A DNA stretch of 37,502 nucleotides from an uncultured Bacteroidota bacterium (GCA_937900965.1 CALCGJ010000197.1:1-37502), one strand, 5' to 3'; shown: positions 9,255 through 37,479, counted from the stretch's first letter. The notes: generated from the sequence alone by a model not told the origin. A program made the numbers and translations.

Positions 9255-10097
9255 GTGATCGTATTCCCCAACGCCAAAATAAACCTCGGCCTTCATGTCG
9301 TTGAAAAACGTACTGATGGCTTTCACAATATCGAAACGGTGTTTTACCCCGTCAACCTCTGCGATGCACTCGAGATCATTCCAGGTGATCAGGAAAAGAC
9401 TGAATTCACCATCTCCGGTTTACCTCTCCCAGGTGATCCGGAAACAAACCTGGTGATGAAAGTGGTAAGATTGATGACAGATGCCGGATCCCGGATGCCG
9501 GATACTCCCCTCCCTTGCTTCCGTATCCACCTCCACAAAGTCATCCCCAGCGGCGCCGGTCTGGGTGGAGGCTCCTCAGATGCTGCTTCTGCATTGAAGC
9601 TTGTGAACGAACTCTGGAAAATGGATTTGTCAGTCCCGCAACTTCAGGATCTTGCAGGACAACTGGGTAGCGATTGTGCCTTCTTCATCGAAAACCGCCC
9701 GGTTTTTGCCACCGGAAGAGGGAACATGCTTGAGCCAATCGAACTGGATCTCTCAGGATACCAGATCGTAATCATAGTGCCACCTGTTCATGTCAGTACC
9801 CCTGAAGCATACAGGATGGTCTCCCCCGCCAAATCCGTTCGCTCCCTGAAAGAGATTATCCGGTTACCTGTTGAGGAGTGGAAAGACAACCTCAGCAACG
9901 ACTTCGAAAAGCCGGTCATGAACAAATACCCGGTGATCCGTGAGATCAAAGAGGAGTTGTACAACAAGGGAGCCCTATATGCTGCCATGAGCGGTAGCGG
10001 GTCAGCAGTGTATGGAATGTTCAGTGGGCAGGTGGCAGTTGGCAGTTTGCAATTCGATCCCTCATTCTTTATCAGCCGAAAGCTCCATCAGGCGTAG
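9255..10097 (+). CDS. ispE: 4-diphosphocytidyl-2-C-methyl-D-erythritol kinase
   Basis: This 280-residue GHMP kinase of the non-mevalonate isoprenoid pathway phosphorylates CDP-ME at the 2-hydroxyl. The start is GTG, giving VIVFPNAKINLGLHV, the normal IspE N-terminus. The ATP loop PSGAGLGGGSSDAASAL and the late AAMSGSGSAVYGMF motif are intact. Two stretches are made of heptamer repeats: residues about 76-85 (a loop reading DAGSRMPDT) and residues about 258-267 (GQVAVGSLQ). The final residues and stop come from a 16-bp tandem array. The catalytic core appears unaffected, so I expect an active enzyme with repeat-derived loop and tail. Confidence 0.95.
   Translation: MIVFPNAKINLGLHVVEKRTDGFHNIETVFYPVNLCDALEIIPGDQEKTEFTISGLPLPGDPETNLVMKVVRLMTDAGSRMPDTPLPCFRIHLHKVIPSGAGLGGGSSDAASALKLVNELWKMDLSVPQLQDLAGQLGSDCAFFIENRPVFATGRGNMLEPIELDLSGYQIVIIVPPVHVSTPEAYRMVSPAKSVRSLKEIIRLPVEEWKDNLSNDFEKPVMNKYPVIREIKEELYNKGALYAAMSGSGSAVYGMFSGQVAVGSLQFDPSFFISRKLHQA
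9481..9508. repeat. Period-7 tandem array D (unit ATGCCGG) inside ispE
   Basis: Four heptamers ATGCCGG, ATCCCGG, ATGCCGG, ATACTCC within coding sequence. They encode a variable loop upstream of the ATP-binding motif. The same unit recurs at 35151-35192. Confidence 0.75.
10027..10054. repeat. Period-7 tandem array E (unit GGCAGTT) inside ispE
   Basis: GGCAGGT, GGCAGTT, GGCAGTT, TGCAATT encode part of the C-terminal tail of IspE. The unit is the reverse complement of the one in the array at 8047-8081. Confidence 0.75.
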
Positions 10098-10164
10098 CCT
10101 CCATCAGCCGAAGGCTCCATCAGGCGCAGCCTCCATCAGGCGTAGCCTCTATCAGCCGAAGGCT
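10069..10164. repeat. 16-bp-period tandem array at the ispE/lptF-G convergent junction
   Basis: Six consecutive 16-mers of the form CCATCAGSCGnAGSCT. Two versions alternate: CCATCAGCCGAAGGCT and CCATCAGGCGTAGCCT. Each unit contains a small hairpin (AGCC-GAA-GGCT or AGGC-GTA-GCCT). The array starts inside the last codons of ispE, supplies its TAG stop at 10095-10097 and ends 1 base before the stop of the minus-strand permease gene. Confidence 0.9.
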
Positions 10165-24077: not shown

Positions 24078-24181
24078 CCCCTAAATCCCCTGAAGGGGAC
24101 TTACTTCCCTTCGCGAATGACCCCACCTTAATCCTCCCCTTGAAGGGGAGGAAATAAAGCCCCCTTTAGGGGGTTTGGGGG
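24076..24181. repeat. Palindromic 3'-end element, copy 1
   Basis: Left arm 24078-24102 (CCCCTAAATCCCCTGAAGGG...) and right arm 24157-24181 (ending TTTGGGGG) are imperfect inverted repeats of 25 bases, each with its own small palindrome. The core holds TTCGCGAA and a 9-bp-stem hairpin at 24132-24152. The element begins in the stop codon of the prolyl oligopeptidase gene. Two further copies are at 33608-33700 and 37386-37479. Confidence 0.9.
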
Positions 24182-24245: not shown

Positions 24246-24292
24246 GGGCAATGTGTAGGGGCGACCTGCCAGGTCGCCCCTACACATTGCCC
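24246..24292. repeat. Perfect 47-bp palindrome (23-bp arms, 1-base centre)
   Basis: The left arm 24246-24268 (GGGCAATGTGTAGGGGCGAC...) and right arm 24270-24292 are exact inverted repeats around C24269. It shares the frame GTAGGGGC...GCCCCTAC with the terminator palindrome at 5311-5338. There is no T-tract on either side, so it is not a classical terminator. It lies between copy 1 of the 3' element and the sigma factor gene. Confidence 0.95.
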
Positions 24293-32641: not shown

Positions 32642-33607
32642 ATGGCCCCTAAGAAATACAAAATACGCAAAGAAATCAAAGTAGGAGCGTTTTTTCTAAT
32701 CGCTCTTGCTGTTATGGTCTGGGGAATCATGTACCTCCAGGGCATTGAGATCCTCAAGAAGAATCGTATCGTTTATGCGGTCTATGACCGTGTCAACGGA
32801 TTGGTTGCTTCCAACCCAGTCACCATTCAGGGCATGAAAGTGGGTCAGGTAAGGTCACTTTATTTCTCACCCGATAATCCAAAAAAGATCATAGTCGAAT
32901 TGTATCTGAGTAATATAACCTACCCGATCCCTAAAAATTCCATTGCCAGTATCTATAGCGCAGACCTGATGGGATCAAAAGAGATCGAGATCCTTCCGGG
33001 TGATTCCCCTGAAATGGTTCAGACCGGTGATACGCTGATGGCACGAACGGAAGCCACGCTTGGAGAGGAGGTCAATCAACAATTGGCTCCGCTCAAACAT
33101 AAAGCAGAAAATCTGATCAGTTCTATCGATACCCTGGCTACGATCCTTCAACAGGTATTGAATAAAAACACTCAGGCGAGCCTGATTGATGCTATTGAGA
33201 ATATTAAATTAGCCATTAACAACATTACACACATGACGTATGCTGCAGATACATTGGTAAGTCAACAGAAATCAAATCTCGCACGTATTATTACGAATGT
33301 GGAGTCAATCAGTCTGAACCTGAAACAGAATAACGACAACATAACCAATATCCTGGAGAACTTCTCCAATGTGAGTGATTCCATCGCAAAACTCAACATC
33401 CCGACAACCTTTATCCAGGTTGATCAGGCGGTTAGAAATTTGAATGAGGTCATCGCAAAGATCAATAATGGAGAGGGATCTGTTGGCTTACTCGTAAACG
33501 ATACCTCTCTCTATTATGAGATCGATAAAGCCGCCCGCGACCTCAACCTGCTCCTGGAGGATATCAAAGCAAATCCGAAGAAATATCTGCACGTTTCGGT
33601 GTTTTGA
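32642..33607 (+). CDS. MCE-domain lipid transport protein, MlaD family
   Basis: The protein has 321 residues. One N-terminal membrane helix at about 14-32 (VGAFFLIALAVMVWGIMYLQ) is followed by the MCE domain at about 38-120 (VYAVYDRVNGLVASNPVTIQGMKVGQV ... SIYSADLMGSKEIEI), then a long helical region (about 140-290) likely to form the hexameric coiled-coil needle or tunnel. It is a periplasmic component of phospholipid transport between the two membranes. No MlaE/MlaF genes are in the window. The gene ends in TGA directly followed by copy 2 of the palindromic 3' element. Confidence 0.92.
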   Translation: MAPKKYKIRKEIKVGAFFLIALAVMVWGIMYLQGIEILKKNRIVYAVYDRVNGLVASNPVTIQGMKVGQVRSLYFSPDNPKKIIVELYLSNITYPIPKNSIASIYSADLMGSKEIEILPGDSPEMVQTGDTLMARTEATLGEEVNQQLAPLKHKAENLISSIDTLATILQQVLNKNTQASLIDAIENIKLAINNITHMTYAADTLVSQQKSNLARIITNVESISLNLKQNNDNITNILENFSNVSDSIAKLNIPTTFIQVDQAVRNLNEVIAKINNGEGSVGLLVNDTSLYYEIDKAARDLNLLLEDIKANPKKYLHVSVF

Positions 33608-33700
33608 AACCCCTAAATCCCCTGAAGGGGACTTGCTCTGCTTCGCAGAAATTATCCTCCCGAAGGGAGGAGTAAGCCCCTTTTAGGGGGTTTGGGAGTA
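33608..33700. repeat. Palindromic 3'-end element, copy 2
   Basis: Left arm 33610-33634 and right arm 33674-33698. The core has two hairpins in the order TCTGC-TTC-GCAGA (33637-33649) then TCCTCCC-GAA-GGGAGGA (33655-33671). It follows the mlaD stop directly. Its right arm is translated on the minus strand as the last residues of the LptA-like protein (SQTP, stop TAA at 33683-33685). Confidence 0.92.
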
Positions 33701-35245
33701 GATCTCTTCCTTTGACTTCGGCTTCCGATCCCCCTGCCAATTGAACCCTTTAAGTATCAGATCGTATGGGGATATCTCATTTTCGGGATATAATGATCCG
33801 GATGGGTTATCAATATACGTGATCGTTTTAATATCATTGTCTTCGACAAAAATCAACATGTCGCTGGCAAATAGTTTGTTAATCCCAATCAACGTTCTGT
33901 CCTCTTCACGAGCGAAGTAGACGGTCTCTGAGTTGCCAAACACGTTGATCTTATAAAGTTCGTTCTTATCAAAGTGGGCAACCATATCCTTCCCCTTGAT
34001 CTGGTTGTATCTGGTGGAGTCATCCATGGAAATGATAAATGCTGATTTATACATAACCATTGAATCCAGCTCTCCGTTCCTGATGGTGATGGTGATTGTG
34101 TCGGCGGTAAGCTGGTTTTTCCCCGACCAGATCACCGGACTGTCATACATGAAAATGGTTGAGTCGGATCTGTGAAATGCAAGTGAGTCGCAGGCTCCCT
34201 GAAGATCTTTCCTGAAAAATTTAACCTTGTAATAGGCAAGCATCGCCCGGATCTGCTGCTGATCATCACCGGGATCAAAATAGGCCATGATTGTGTCGCC
34301 ATGCATGAAGAGGGAATCGTTCTTGTCAATCATGATCCCTGTTGCTTTGTTTGTCATGAAGCCTCTCCCTCTTTTTCGTACCAGTTCCCCATAGTTTCCG
34401 GTTATGGCAAAATTTTGAATGGTATCCAGCAGCATGGCATTATTAAACACCTGGCCATATCCATTGACCCGTTCGTAGTAAATCGTGTCACCGGTTAACA
34501 GTTGCGCTTCATGATAAATCCGGGCACCGTAACGTAATCGTGCGATGTCTTTCTGGGTATCGTACCATCCGTCGATGCAGTAAATAGAATCAACTTTATC
34601 ATTTGATACGATGGTTGATGGTCCGAAAAAATAGACGATCTCCGTCACTGTATTGTACATCAGCGTATCAGATTTCATATAGTAATCCGGGTTGATCAGG
34701 ATCACCTTCTTCTTGAAGAAAAACTCTTTGACACGTGTGTAATAATAGCCGTATTGACTTACCAGGCAGTTATCATCGCTCACGATTTTGCCCCAGTTAT
34801 CGTACCAGGCTATCTGGGTTCGCCGGTCGAAGTCGAGACTATCAGTGGTCAGAATAGTTTGATTATCAACTAATTTAACATTTCCCCATACTTTGGCAAT
34901 CTTCGTGTTACCATTATATCGCAACGAGTCTCCGTAAAGGTTTAGGGTATCGGAAGCTTTGATATGAACATTTCCGTAAGCCTTAACTTCGTTTGTCATA
35001 TCGTTCATGTAGGCACTGTCACAGAACAGATATCCCGTATCATGCCGGAGAATGACATTCCCAATGATCCGCTGGATGTCGGGACCGATCGCTTTATTGT
35101 ATTCCCATGTGTCTGCCTGTTCCAGGACAATTTTAGTAGTATCCTGAGCCTGAATGATGCCTGATTGCCAGATGCCGGATGCCTGTAACAGGAGTAAGAG
35201 GAAAACATTTCGGATAATAGAGCGTAGCATAGTGATTGTGTTCAC
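33683..35245 (-). CDS. OstA-like LptA family periplasmic protein
   Basis: The protein has 520 residues. A signal peptide (IIRNVFLLLLLQASGIWQSG...) leads into repeated OstA/LptA beta-jellyroll strands: IGNVILRHDTGYLFCDSAYMN, VKAYGNVHIKASDTLNLYGDSLRY, VWGNVKLVDNQTILTTDSLDF. The pattern 'name the step, then DSL' recurs down the protein. In this phylum such proteins are thought to bridge LPS between the inner-membrane exporter and LptD. The region between hydrophobic core and cleavage site (SGIWQSGIIQAQ) is encoded by a heptamer array, and the last four residues come from the palindromic element. It is much longer than E. coli LptA (185 residues), as usual in Bacteroidota. Confidence 0.9.
   Translation of the reverse strand: MNTITMLRSIIRNVFLLLLLQASGIWQSGIIQAQDTTKIVLEQADTWEYNKAIGPDIQRIIGNVILRHDTGYLFCDSAYMNDMTNEVKAYGNVHIKASDTLNLYGDSLRYNGNTKIAKVWGNVKLVDNQTILTTDSLDFDRRTQIAWYDNWGKIVSDDNCLVSQYGYYYTRVKEFFFKKKVILINPDYYMKSDTLMYNTVTEIVYFFGPSTIVSNDKVDSIYCIDGWYDTQKDIARLRYGARIYHEAQLLTGDTIYYERVNGYGQVFNNAMLLDTIQNFAITGNYGELVRKRGRGFMTNKATGIMIDKNDSLFMHGDTIMAYFDPGDDQQQIRAMLAYYKVKFFRKDLQGACDSLAFHRSDSTIFMYDSPVIWSGKNQLTADTITITIRNGELDSMVMYKSAFIISMDDSTRYNQIKGKDMVAHFDKNELYKINVFGNSETVYFAREEDRTLIGINKLFASDMLIFVEDNDIKTITYIDNPSGSLYPENEISPYDLILKGFNWQGDRKPKSKEEIYSQTP
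35151..35192. repeat. Period-7 tandem array H inside the LptA-like signal peptide
   Basis: Six heptamers TGAATGA, TGCCTGA, TTGCCAG, ATGCCGG, ATGCCTG, TAACAGG. On the coding (minus) strand they read as CAGGCAT-type units and encode the end of the signal peptide. The unit matches arrays D and F. Confidence 0.75.
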
Positions 35246-35346
35246 TGCAAATTTCGTCTTTTTTCAACAATCAGGAGTGTATAAGGCCGGGTTTTAACTT
35301 CTTTTAACGGATTCATAAGATGCAATATAGATATCAAACGGCTTTC

Positions 35347-35377
35347 TTGTTCATTAACTCCTGTTTCCCTACTTTTG
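35347..35377 (+). promoter_or_regulatory. Promoter of the gatE gene
   Basis: TTG at 35347-35349, a 20-base spacer and TACTTTTG at 35370-35377 match the Bacteroidetes consensus in both boxes and spacing. The leader to the ATG at 35405 is about 20 bases. Confidence 0.6.
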
Positions 35378-35404
35378 TGTCTTCTTCCCAATTCGTACAA
35401 ATAG

Positions 35405-37369
35405 ATGAAACGACCCACACTTGATCCTCTCCTAAACTATGAGGAAACTCGCCAGGCCATTGGATATGTTCCCAGAAAAGAAGCTACACAGAAAGACTAC
35501 GAACGCATCGGATTTATGTCGGGTCTGGAGGTTCACCAGCAACTGAAAACAAAAGAGAAGCTTTTCTGCCATTGTCCGGCCGGGATCTTTCAGAAACCTG
35601 ATGAATTTGATGCCGAAGTAATCCGCCATATGCGTCCCACTCTCTCAGAACTTGGGGAATACGACGGGACCGCCCTGATGGAGTTCAAGACCAGGAAAGA
35701 GATTGTTTACCGCATCAGCAACAAAACAGCCTGTACCTACGATATAGATGATACTCCTCCGTTCCCGTTAAACAGGGAGGCACTGGATATCGCGATCGAA
35801 ATATCCCTGATGTCAAAATTAATGATTGTCGGAGAGGTACATATCACCCGGAAGCAGTATCTCGACGGAAGCATCCCTACAGGTTTTCAACGGACTGCTA
35901 TCATCGGAGTAGAGGGGGAGATACAGCTTCGGAACAAAAAAATCAGGTTGATCCAGCTTAGCCTCGAAGAGGACTCCTGCCGCGAGGTCTCCGATATCGG
36001 GCATCAGCGAATCTACCGTACCGACCGCCTTGGGATGCCTCTGATCGAAACTGTAACCTATCCCGATTTTAAAAACCCTGATGAGGTGAAAGAGGGGGCC
36101 GATTACATCCGTTTCCTCAACAGAAGTACGGAAAAAGTAGCTACCGGCATTGGTTCTACCCGGGCCGACGTCAATGTAAGTTGCAAAGGAGGGACCCGTG
36201 TGGAGATCAAAGGGGTTGCCCATAACCGCTGGATGCCTGAACTTACCCACAATGAAGCATTCCGGCAGTTTGCATTGCTGCACATCAGAGAGATCCTGAA
36301 CGTAGGTGTTCAGAAGCCTGGGAGCTGGAAGATGAACTCCATTAAAATCTCTGCAGAAGATCTTGTTACTGAGGTTCCTATGGTCAGTAAGATGGCTTCC
36401 AACGGATATCCGGTCTATATAATCAACCTGCCTCAATTTCAGGGTATCCTTTCCCACTTCCTGCAACCGGAGAAGACTTTCGCTGATGAGCTGACCAACC
36501 GTTTGAAGGTGATCGCCTGCATCGAAAAACCCAATATGCTTCATTCCGAGATGTTCGAAGATTCCGTGGGGGAGGAGAACTGGCAGAAAATCCGCAATAT
36601 GTTGGATGCAGGGGAAGAAGATGCCCAGGTGATTCTCTGGGGCCCGGAAGCCGATATCCCAACTGCCCTGGAGACAGTTGAAGAGAGATGCCAGATGGCT
36701 TTTTCCGGTGTTCCCAATGAGACCCGGAAGTCGTTTGAGGATGGAACTACCATTTTCGAACGTGTACTCCCCGGTGCCGACCGCATGTACCCCGATACCG
36801 ACACTGCACCGATTCCACTGGTCGATGCGGTGATTGATGAGATGGCAAAAAGACTGCCGGTGGTTACCTTCGACCGGATCACACAACTCCTCAGCTGGAA
36901 CGTACCGGAAGATACGTTCACCTACATCCTGAAGAATAACCTGATGCCATTGATCGAAAAAGTCATGGACAATCTCGGCATCCCGGCGAAGTTTACTGCC
37001 AACCTGCTTGCCCATAAGCTGAACCATATGGAACGCCAACTTGGCCCTGTACCTGGTTTTGCAGCAGATAAGGTATATGAACTGCTTGCTTTCCTGAAAT
37101 CGAAAAAAATGGATTTTGCTATCGCGAAGAAGATGTTATGGGTTGTTTACAGGCATCCTGAAATGGATTTTGAATCCGTGCTGACTGAAGTGAATTTCAA
37201 AGAGGCTTCACTGGAAGAAATTACAAAGATGATTCCTTCTCTGGTTAAAGAGTATCAGGAGATAAAAACATCAGCTAAGGATGGAGCCGGAGTTAGCTGG
37301 ATCATGGGACAACTGAGAAAGAGTGCGCTTGGGAATGTTTCATTGAAGGAGTTGAGGGAGCTTATTTAA
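35405..37369 (+). CDS. gatE: Archaeal-type Glu-tRNA(Gln) amidotransferase subunit E
   Basis: The protein has 654 residues, against about 480 for bacterial GatB. The N-terminal GatB/E kinase domain reads GLEVHQQLKTKEKLFCHCP, MRPTLSELGEYDGTALMEF, RKQYLDGSIPTGFQRT and TRADVNVSC. Residues about 410-490 form a GAD insertion (ILWGPEADIPTALETVEERC ... RVLPGADRMYPDTD), a domain found in GatE and bacterial AspRS but not GatB. A helical/YqeY-like tail ends the protein (VSWIMGQLRKSALGNV). GatE works with GatD to convert Glu-tRNA(Gln) to Gln-tRNA(Gln) in archaea. No gatD is seen in the window; it may follow copy 3 of the palindromic element. Codon use looks like its neighbours, so any transfer is old. 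Confidence 0.9.
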   Translation: MKRPTLDPLLNYEETRQAIGYVPRKEATQKDYERIGFMSGLEVHQQLKTKEKLFCHCPAGIFQKPDEFDAEVIRHMRPTLSELGEYDGTALMEFKTRKEIVYRISNKTACTYDIDDTPPFPLNREALDIAIEISLMSKLMIVGEVHITRKQYLDGSIPTGFQRTAIIGVEGEIQLRNKKIRLIQLSLEEDSCREVSDIGHQRIYRTDRLGMPLIETVTYPDFKNPDEVKEGADYIRFLNRSTEKVATGIGSTRADVNVSCKGGTRVEIKGVAHNRWMPELTHNEAFRQFALLHIREILNVGVQKPGSWKMNSIKISAEDLVTEVPMVSKMASNGYPVYIINLPQFQGILSHFLQPEKTFADELTNRLKVIACIEKPNMLHSEMFEDSVGEENWQKIRNMLDAGEEDAQVILWGPEADIPTALETVEERCQMAFSGVPNETRKSFEDGTTIFERVLPGADRMYPDTDTAPIPLVDAVIDEMAKRLPVVTFDRITQLLSWNVPEDTFTYILKNNLMPLIEKVMDNLGIPAKFTANLLAHKLNHMERQLGPVPGFAADKVYELLAFLKSKKMDFAIAKKMLWVVYRHPEMDFESVLTEVNFKEASLEEITKMIPSLVKEYQEIKTSAKDGAGVSWIMGQLRKSALGNVSLKELRELI

Positions 37370-37385
37370 CCCCTAACCCATTGTT

Positions 37386-37479
37386 AACCCCTAAATCCCC
37401 TGAAGGGGACTTGCTCCTCCCTCCGGGAGGAAAATTTCTGCGAAGCAGAGTAAGCCCCCTTTAGGGGGTTTGGGGGTAG
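37386..37479. repeat. Palindromic 3'-end element, copy 3 (core inverted)
   Basis: Left arm 37388-37412 and right arm 37452-37476. The core order is TCCTCCC-TCC-GGGAGGA (37415-37431) then TCTGC-GAA-GCAGA (37437-37449), the reverse of copy 2. A partial duplicate of the left edge (TTAACCCCTAA) lies at 37366-37376 beside the gatE stop codon. Confidence 0.92.

Follow-up and report, generated by a model that had tools for sequence, protein, structure and literature searches.

A two-hairpin core lies in either direction between the arms of a REP-like repeat family in uncultured Bacteroidales

Results

Copies 2 and 3 carry oppositely directed cores between co-oriented arms

The core of a short palindromic repeat lies in both directions relative to the arms that enclose it, and this inversion of the core against the arms is genuine and is seen repeatedly within a genus of uncultured Bacteroidales. 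The repeat occurs in a 37,502-nt stretch of DNA from an uncultured Bacteroidota bacterium (GCA_937900965.1, CALCGJ010000197.1:1-37502; hereafter, the window), in which the original prediction had described three copies and had correctly placed copies 2 and 3. These two copies consist of arms of two types, A and B, and of a core with two hairpins, S and T; their parts and those of copy 1 are as follows.

24078..24102, + strand: copy 1 left arm, type A (pattern match)
24103..24156, + strand: copy 1 core, different and longer, 54 nt (sequence)
24157..24181, - strand: copy 1 right arm, type B (pattern match)
33610..33634, + strand: copy 2 left arm, type A, CCCCTAAATCCCCTGAAGGGGACTT (pattern match, 0 mismatches)
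33637..33649, + strand: copy 2 hairpin S, TCTGCTTCGCAGA, TTC loop on the + strand, adjoining arm A (sequence; RNA fold)
33650..33654, + strand: copy 2 linker, AATTA (sequence)
33655..33671, + strand: copy 2 hairpin T, TCCTCCCGAAGGGAGGA (sequence; RNA fold)
33674..33698, - strand: copy 2 right arm, decayed type B, CTCCCAAACCCCCTAAAAGGGGCTT on the - strand (pattern match, 2 mismatches)
37388..37412, + strand: copy 3 left arm, type A, the same as the copy 2 left arm (pattern match, 0 mismatches)
37415..37431, + strand: copy 3 hairpin T, TCCTCCCTCCGGGAGGA, adjoining arm A (sequence; RNA fold)
37432..37436, + strand: copy 3 linker, AAATT (sequence)
37437..37449, + strand: copy 3 hairpin S, TCTGCGAAGCAGA, reverse-complemented (GAA loop on the + strand), adjoining arm B (sequence; RNA fold)
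37452..37476, - strand: copy 3 right arm, type B, CCCCCAAACCCCCTAAAGGGGGCTT on the - strand (pattern match, 0 mismatches)

When recomputed, the reverse complement of the 35-nt copy 2 core (33637-33671) matched the copy 3 core (37415-37449) at 33 of 35 positions, exactly as had been claimed, compared with 13 of 35 in the same direction and a best score of 19 of 35 in 20,000 composition shuffles of the core. The arms do not take part in this reversal: the left arms (33610-33634 and 37388-37412) are identical and the right arms (33674-33698 and 37452-37476) have equal orientation, again as described. The arms had also been said to be inverted repeats of each other at about 21 of 25 positions, which holds for copy 3 (21/25) but not for copy 2, where we counted 19/25 from the sequence, the right arm having two extra substitutions. 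Copy 1 (24078-24181), which begins where a prolyl oligopeptidase gene ends, at its stop codon, follows the copy 2 order only loosely, as its different and longer core is made of a decayed first hairpin and a GACCCC...CCTCCCCTTGAAGGGGAGG module. Only 23 nt separate copy 3 from the end of the contig, but its position appears authentic, since a sister genome has the same right flank, GATTACTGAAAATAA, next to its orthologous element. Copies 2 and 3 occupy two different loci, and for this pair in-place inversion and gain of an opposite core would give the same result.

RNA folding predicts an outer arm stem and two hairpins for each copy, which would form a three-way junction as a single strand (-55.2 kcal/mol, z -7.0, for copy 2; -65.0 kcal/mol, z -7.9, for copy 3); the predicted folds of the opposite strands are less stable. 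The stems are nearly invariant, with two Watson-Crick types in 3 of 32 pairs.

The MlaD gene stops at 33607, directly before copy 2, and the convergent OstA-like gene (33683-35245, - strand) has its stop codon (33683-33685) inside the copy 2 right arm, such that both genes end at copy 2. Near copy 1, positions 24246-24292 (GGGCAATGTGTAGGGGCGACCTG) form a perfect inverted repeat of 23 nt around a 1-nt loop; a similar hairpin, GTAGGGGCAACCTGCCAGGTTGCCCCTAC, is found at the gatB 3' end of a related genome (G001), and the two probably represent a second palindromic repeat family. Elsewhere in the window, positions 10055-10164 hold an array of 16-nt units in which ATCAGCCGAAGGCTCC alternates with ATCAGGCGTAGCCTCC.

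The repeat is a modular family with two arm types

Six genomes (G000-G005) from one genus of uncultured Bacteroidales were compared, all of them fragmented metagenome assemblies; the window's own genome is 96% complete. The 25-nt arm pattern has 88 matches in the own genome (at most 3 mismatches), where the same search with a reversed control pattern gave 0, and is found at 13 to 147 places in each of the five other genomes (at most 2 mismatches), with G003 holding the most copies (147). A single near arm match was obtained among 35 sampled genomes from other genera of the host's family. All these copies belong to a single family that is mostly restricted to this genus.

Type A arms (CCCCTAAATCCCCTRAAGGGGACTT) and type B arms (CCCCCAAACCCCCTRAAGGGGGCTT) differ by transitions only, and their exact matches to each other extend over no more than about 6-12 nt. 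Diagnostic positions divide the 240 distinct arms of the six genomes into 173 A-like, 55 B-like, and 12 A/B hybrids. Canonical copies are 88-89 nt long, an arm, a 38-39 nt core and a second arm, while the same arms also occur in non-canonical architectures, namely three-module longer cores, short one-arm types, and 42-nt tandem arrays. The ends of the elements vary (GGGGTAG, GGGGCAA, GGGGTTT, GGGGTGA). The repeat is best described as a REP-like, non-coding, modular palindromic family.

Elements are intergenic, and the gene ends that adjoin them are 3' ends in 27/42 and 5' ends in 24/42, with an A-first polarity of 8 to 4. We rejected a strand-specific 3'-UTR role because 3' and 5' gene ends occur at similar frequency and the polarity counts are too few. 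Membership in a known RNA family was likewise rejected, no score having come near an Rfam gathering threshold, and a search of one literature collection with the arm sequences returned no paper on this repeat, its sole match being an unrelated G-quadruplex study. In the own genome, a UvrA-like ABC ATPase reading frame (L007:524-3025, contig C48) holds two short-type copies in frame (e.g. NPLKGTYSLPFRGGLGRG), and the repeat can thus become protein-coding. The 42-nt tandem arrays, each unit an arm A with a hairpin S, were seen at L009, L083, L096, L097, and L098, and their copy number varies between orthologous loci.

The core is a polarised cassette found in both directions

When both strands were searched for an S hairpin with a T hairpin after it, 31 cores were recovered. 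Read with S first, the S loop is TTC in 28 of these and TCC, TTT, or TAC in the rest; it is never GAA, and flipped cores are therefore true inversions of the whole unit, linker included. Separate acquisition of the S and T hairpins was rejected because loop and linker invert with hairpin order in 31/31 cores. The core is one polarised cassette of hairpin S, linker, and hairpin T.

The original prediction had proposed scoring core orientation against the arms in the genome and its relatives. Of the 26 canonical elements, 12 have S beside B and 6 have it beside A; 8 have two A arms, and none was seen with two B arms. Both orientations are thus present among the 18 canonical A/B copies, and both occur within G000 and within G003. 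Heterotypic arm pairs are in excess (18/26, P = 0.009), which, with the lack of B/B elements among the 26, shows that arm homogenisation is limited and makes the arm types useful markers.

Core direction in the 18 A/B elements shows no association with core similarity, as expected for repeated change: the nearest-neighbour score was 8.2 of 18 against a shuffle mean of 9.5 (P = 0.74). Two ancient lineages of opposite direction are not supported by this test. Both directions are present in the four-copy subfamily with a 39-nt core (copies 2 and 3, which are L019 and L020, and L089 and L113 of G003), in which S adjoins A in copy 2 alone.

Orthologous loci differ by whole flips, core reversal, and core replacement

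Orthologous loci were identified by matching flanks with repeats masked, after which the intergenic sequence was compared. At the gatB 3' locus, which holds copy 3, the G000 and G003 elements are identical at 86/89 positions if one is flipped and at 59/89 unflipped, TGTTAA adjoins arm A in both genomes, and no other full-length element is as closely related to copy 3 (L020) as the G003 one (L089). The whole element, arms included, has been reversed here between two species.

A second locus, with both flanks matched between genomes, is represented by L009, L096, L102, and L103. The G000 and G003 copies (L009 and L096) have the same, near-identical core in the same direction, the left arm in G003 being an A/B hybrid, and their core type differs from those of both L102 and L103. 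Between G001 and G004 (L102/L103), arm order and flanks are the same, and the cores can be aligned only if one of them is reverse-complemented (score 73, versus 18 direct and a shuffle maximum of 31). The core is thus reversed here inside fixed arms and flanks; the S hairpins of the two cores differ, so core replacement could also have given the reversal.

Cores have been replaced inside conserved arms in three further comparisons (L053 vs L081, L033 vs L099, L042/L086/L104) and nearly lost, with arm remnants left, in others (L040 vs L221, L042, L050 vs L091). The A/B arm order relative to the flanks is kept at L009/L102/L103, L053/L081, and L016/L074. The copy 2 locus at the mlaD 3' end is empty in G001, G002, and G005 and carries a short-type element in G003 and G004; no target-site duplication was seen by eye in comparison with the empty G001 site.

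Because cores are replaced between species, exchange between copies contributes besides in-place inversion, and the gatB flip together with the core replacements makes in-place inversion one of several arm-driven rearrangements. Two outcomes that had been named as contrary to core inversion, a flip of the whole element and the independent acquisition of cores, are therefore each found in part elsewhere in the family, the former at gatB and the latter at the several orthologous loci where core type is swapped inside the same arms.

Overall divergence also varies among shared loci: G000 and G003 show about 92% identity at L004/L235, compared with roughly 70-85% at most others. A 437-nt stretch of L031/L069 is identical between G000 and a locus assigned to G005, unlike the rest of these genomes, possibly reflecting a shared or mis-binned contig.

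Candidate mechanisms of core inversion

These observations are probably best explained by template switching or conversion that the arms mediate, either inside one copy or from one copy to another. During replication or repair, a nascent strand would pair with the opposite arm (same element, sister strand), or alternatively with an arm of another copy, copy the core backwards or copy a different core, and return within the second arm. As S and T are each palindromic, a flip would swap their order and leave the folded shape unchanged, so that flips would be near-neutral and could accumulate. Across the family the spacer is reversed, arms are sometimes homogenised or hybrid, and the core is sometimes deleted or replaced, which is the outcome expected of template switching and ectopic conversion and from which we infer such events as the cause. 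The A/A elements (8/26 canonical) and hybrid arms (12/240) likewise suggest cross-talk between arms. In yeast, template switching at non-identical short inverted repeats is documented to homogenise the arms and to invert the spacer, arms above 9 bp being favoured (PMC8604942). Given the short exact runs shared by A and B, a heterotypic element is a non-ideal switching substrate, and an A/A element would be a better one. The original prediction that inverted-repeat arms could drive inversion agrees with arms and a replication-type switch being the best-fitting mechanism; of the site-specific or replication-slip event that it envisaged, the inversion itself is borne out across the genus and the site-specific form is without support.

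It is possible, although we doubt it, that no core inverts in place and that whole cores are copied from dispersed elements by ectopic gene conversion, with the arms as anchors which, being alike in reverse, would accept donors in either direction. The differing core types at orthologous loci with conserved flanks and the hybrid arms are in keeping with such replacement, but the gatB element holds the same 39-nt core in both species, wholly reversed, and the close kinship of L089 and L020 points to reversal at the locus; the near-identical cores of L009 and L096 further indicate that turnover is incomplete. We think it unlikely that the core flip is only apparent, arising when a whole element flips or inserts in the opposite direction and its arms are then re-converted to A and B. 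Such a flip is seen at gatB, where TGTTAA stands beside arm A in both species, and the hybrid and A/A arms indicate that arms can convert, yet both arms would have to convert afterwards, and A/B order relative to the flanks is kept at the three groups of loci listed above.

The family recalls REP/RAYT systems in its many copies and palindromic arms, and G003, with the most copies, encodes one Y1_Tnp protein, as might be expected if a dedicated enzyme, either a site-specific recombinase or a RAYT/IS200-like single-strand transposase, read the arms and inverted or exchanged the core. We nonetheless consider this very improbable, as searches of the 96%-complete own genome detected neither Y1_Tnp (PF01797, RAYT) nor a serine recombinase, and no arms lie in the 3.4-kb locus around the sole G003 Y1_Tnp gene. 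RAYT/IS200 mobilisation and a serine invertase were rejected on these grounds. For site-specific invertible DNA (invertons), which pair a recombinase gene with reversible switching inside a population, the comparison yielded the negative serine recombinase search of the own genome. No crossover motif was seen beyond the arms, and a non-exhaustive search for a parent transposase with the same terminal repeats, as a test for a MITE, found none. That the arms are a standing exchange platform on which a dedicated host or mobile enzyme flips and swaps cores genome-wide is quite improbable; if true, the repeat would be a modular, actively re-sorted hairpin system. Finally, short-read mis-joins at palindromic cores could create false differences in direction, and the genomes are indeed fragmented, with several contigs ending at these elements. 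Such an artefact is scarcely credible for elements of only about 90 nt that show two core directions in more than one genome and have flanks syntenic with sister genomes on both sides.

Discussion

A core that lies in either direction between fixed ends is real and recurrent in this family, and the kind of event is already known. Template-switch inversion in yeast, and at the E. coli quasipalindromes cited in the same work (PMC8604942), also reverses a spacer between inverted-repeat arms that can homogenise. Here, too, the spacer is turned round while the arms keep their positions, both in copies 2 and 3 and at L102/L103, where core replacement is also possible. The published cases involve spacers of a few bases at single sites, whereas here a 35-nt two-hairpin cassette is reversed in a dispersed family whose cores are exchanged.

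REP and BIME sequences with RAYT (PMC2817692), including the GTAG/CGTC families (PMC3733652), are likewise dispersed, palindromic, intergenic, and lineage-restricted, and form clusters and tandem arrays; the high copy number of dispersed palindromes is matched by the 88 and 147 arm matches of the own genome and G003. Their units measure 20-40 nt, in contrast to a predicted three-way junction of about 90 nt in a genome with no detected RAYT. The GTAG/CGTC superfamilies have an invariant end tag, whereas these elements have variable ends, and a RAYT gene flanked by two inverted repeat copies, as in REP/RAYT systems, was found in neither the own genome nor G003.

Among the published systems considered, the closest behavioural analogue is the merger and shuffling of GC clusters in yeast mitochondrial DNA (GC42 and relatives). 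In the portions of that study considered here (PMC4478555), these are short dispersed hairpins whose units merge and shuffle and which take different forms at the same homologous site; they differ in being mitochondrial, in sequence, and in a putative target-site duplication, and those portions describe no core inversion inside fixed arms. The double-hairpin or repetitive hairpin-forming elements of fungal and sponge mitochondria share two adjacent hairpins and the look of a mobile repeat, and the sections of the report consulted (PMC2800124) describe no polarised core cassette enclosed by conserved inverted arms on the outside.

One caution for palindromic repeats in general is that direction inside the repeat should not be taken for the direction of insertion. 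With two arm types and a polarised core, the family carries built-in direction markers and is a natural recorder of the template switching and ectopic conversion that take place between short inverted repeats in bacteria. In each copy, conversion of the arms, reversal of the core, and its replacement can be scored separately, and the orthologous loci of the repeat allow rates to be estimated.
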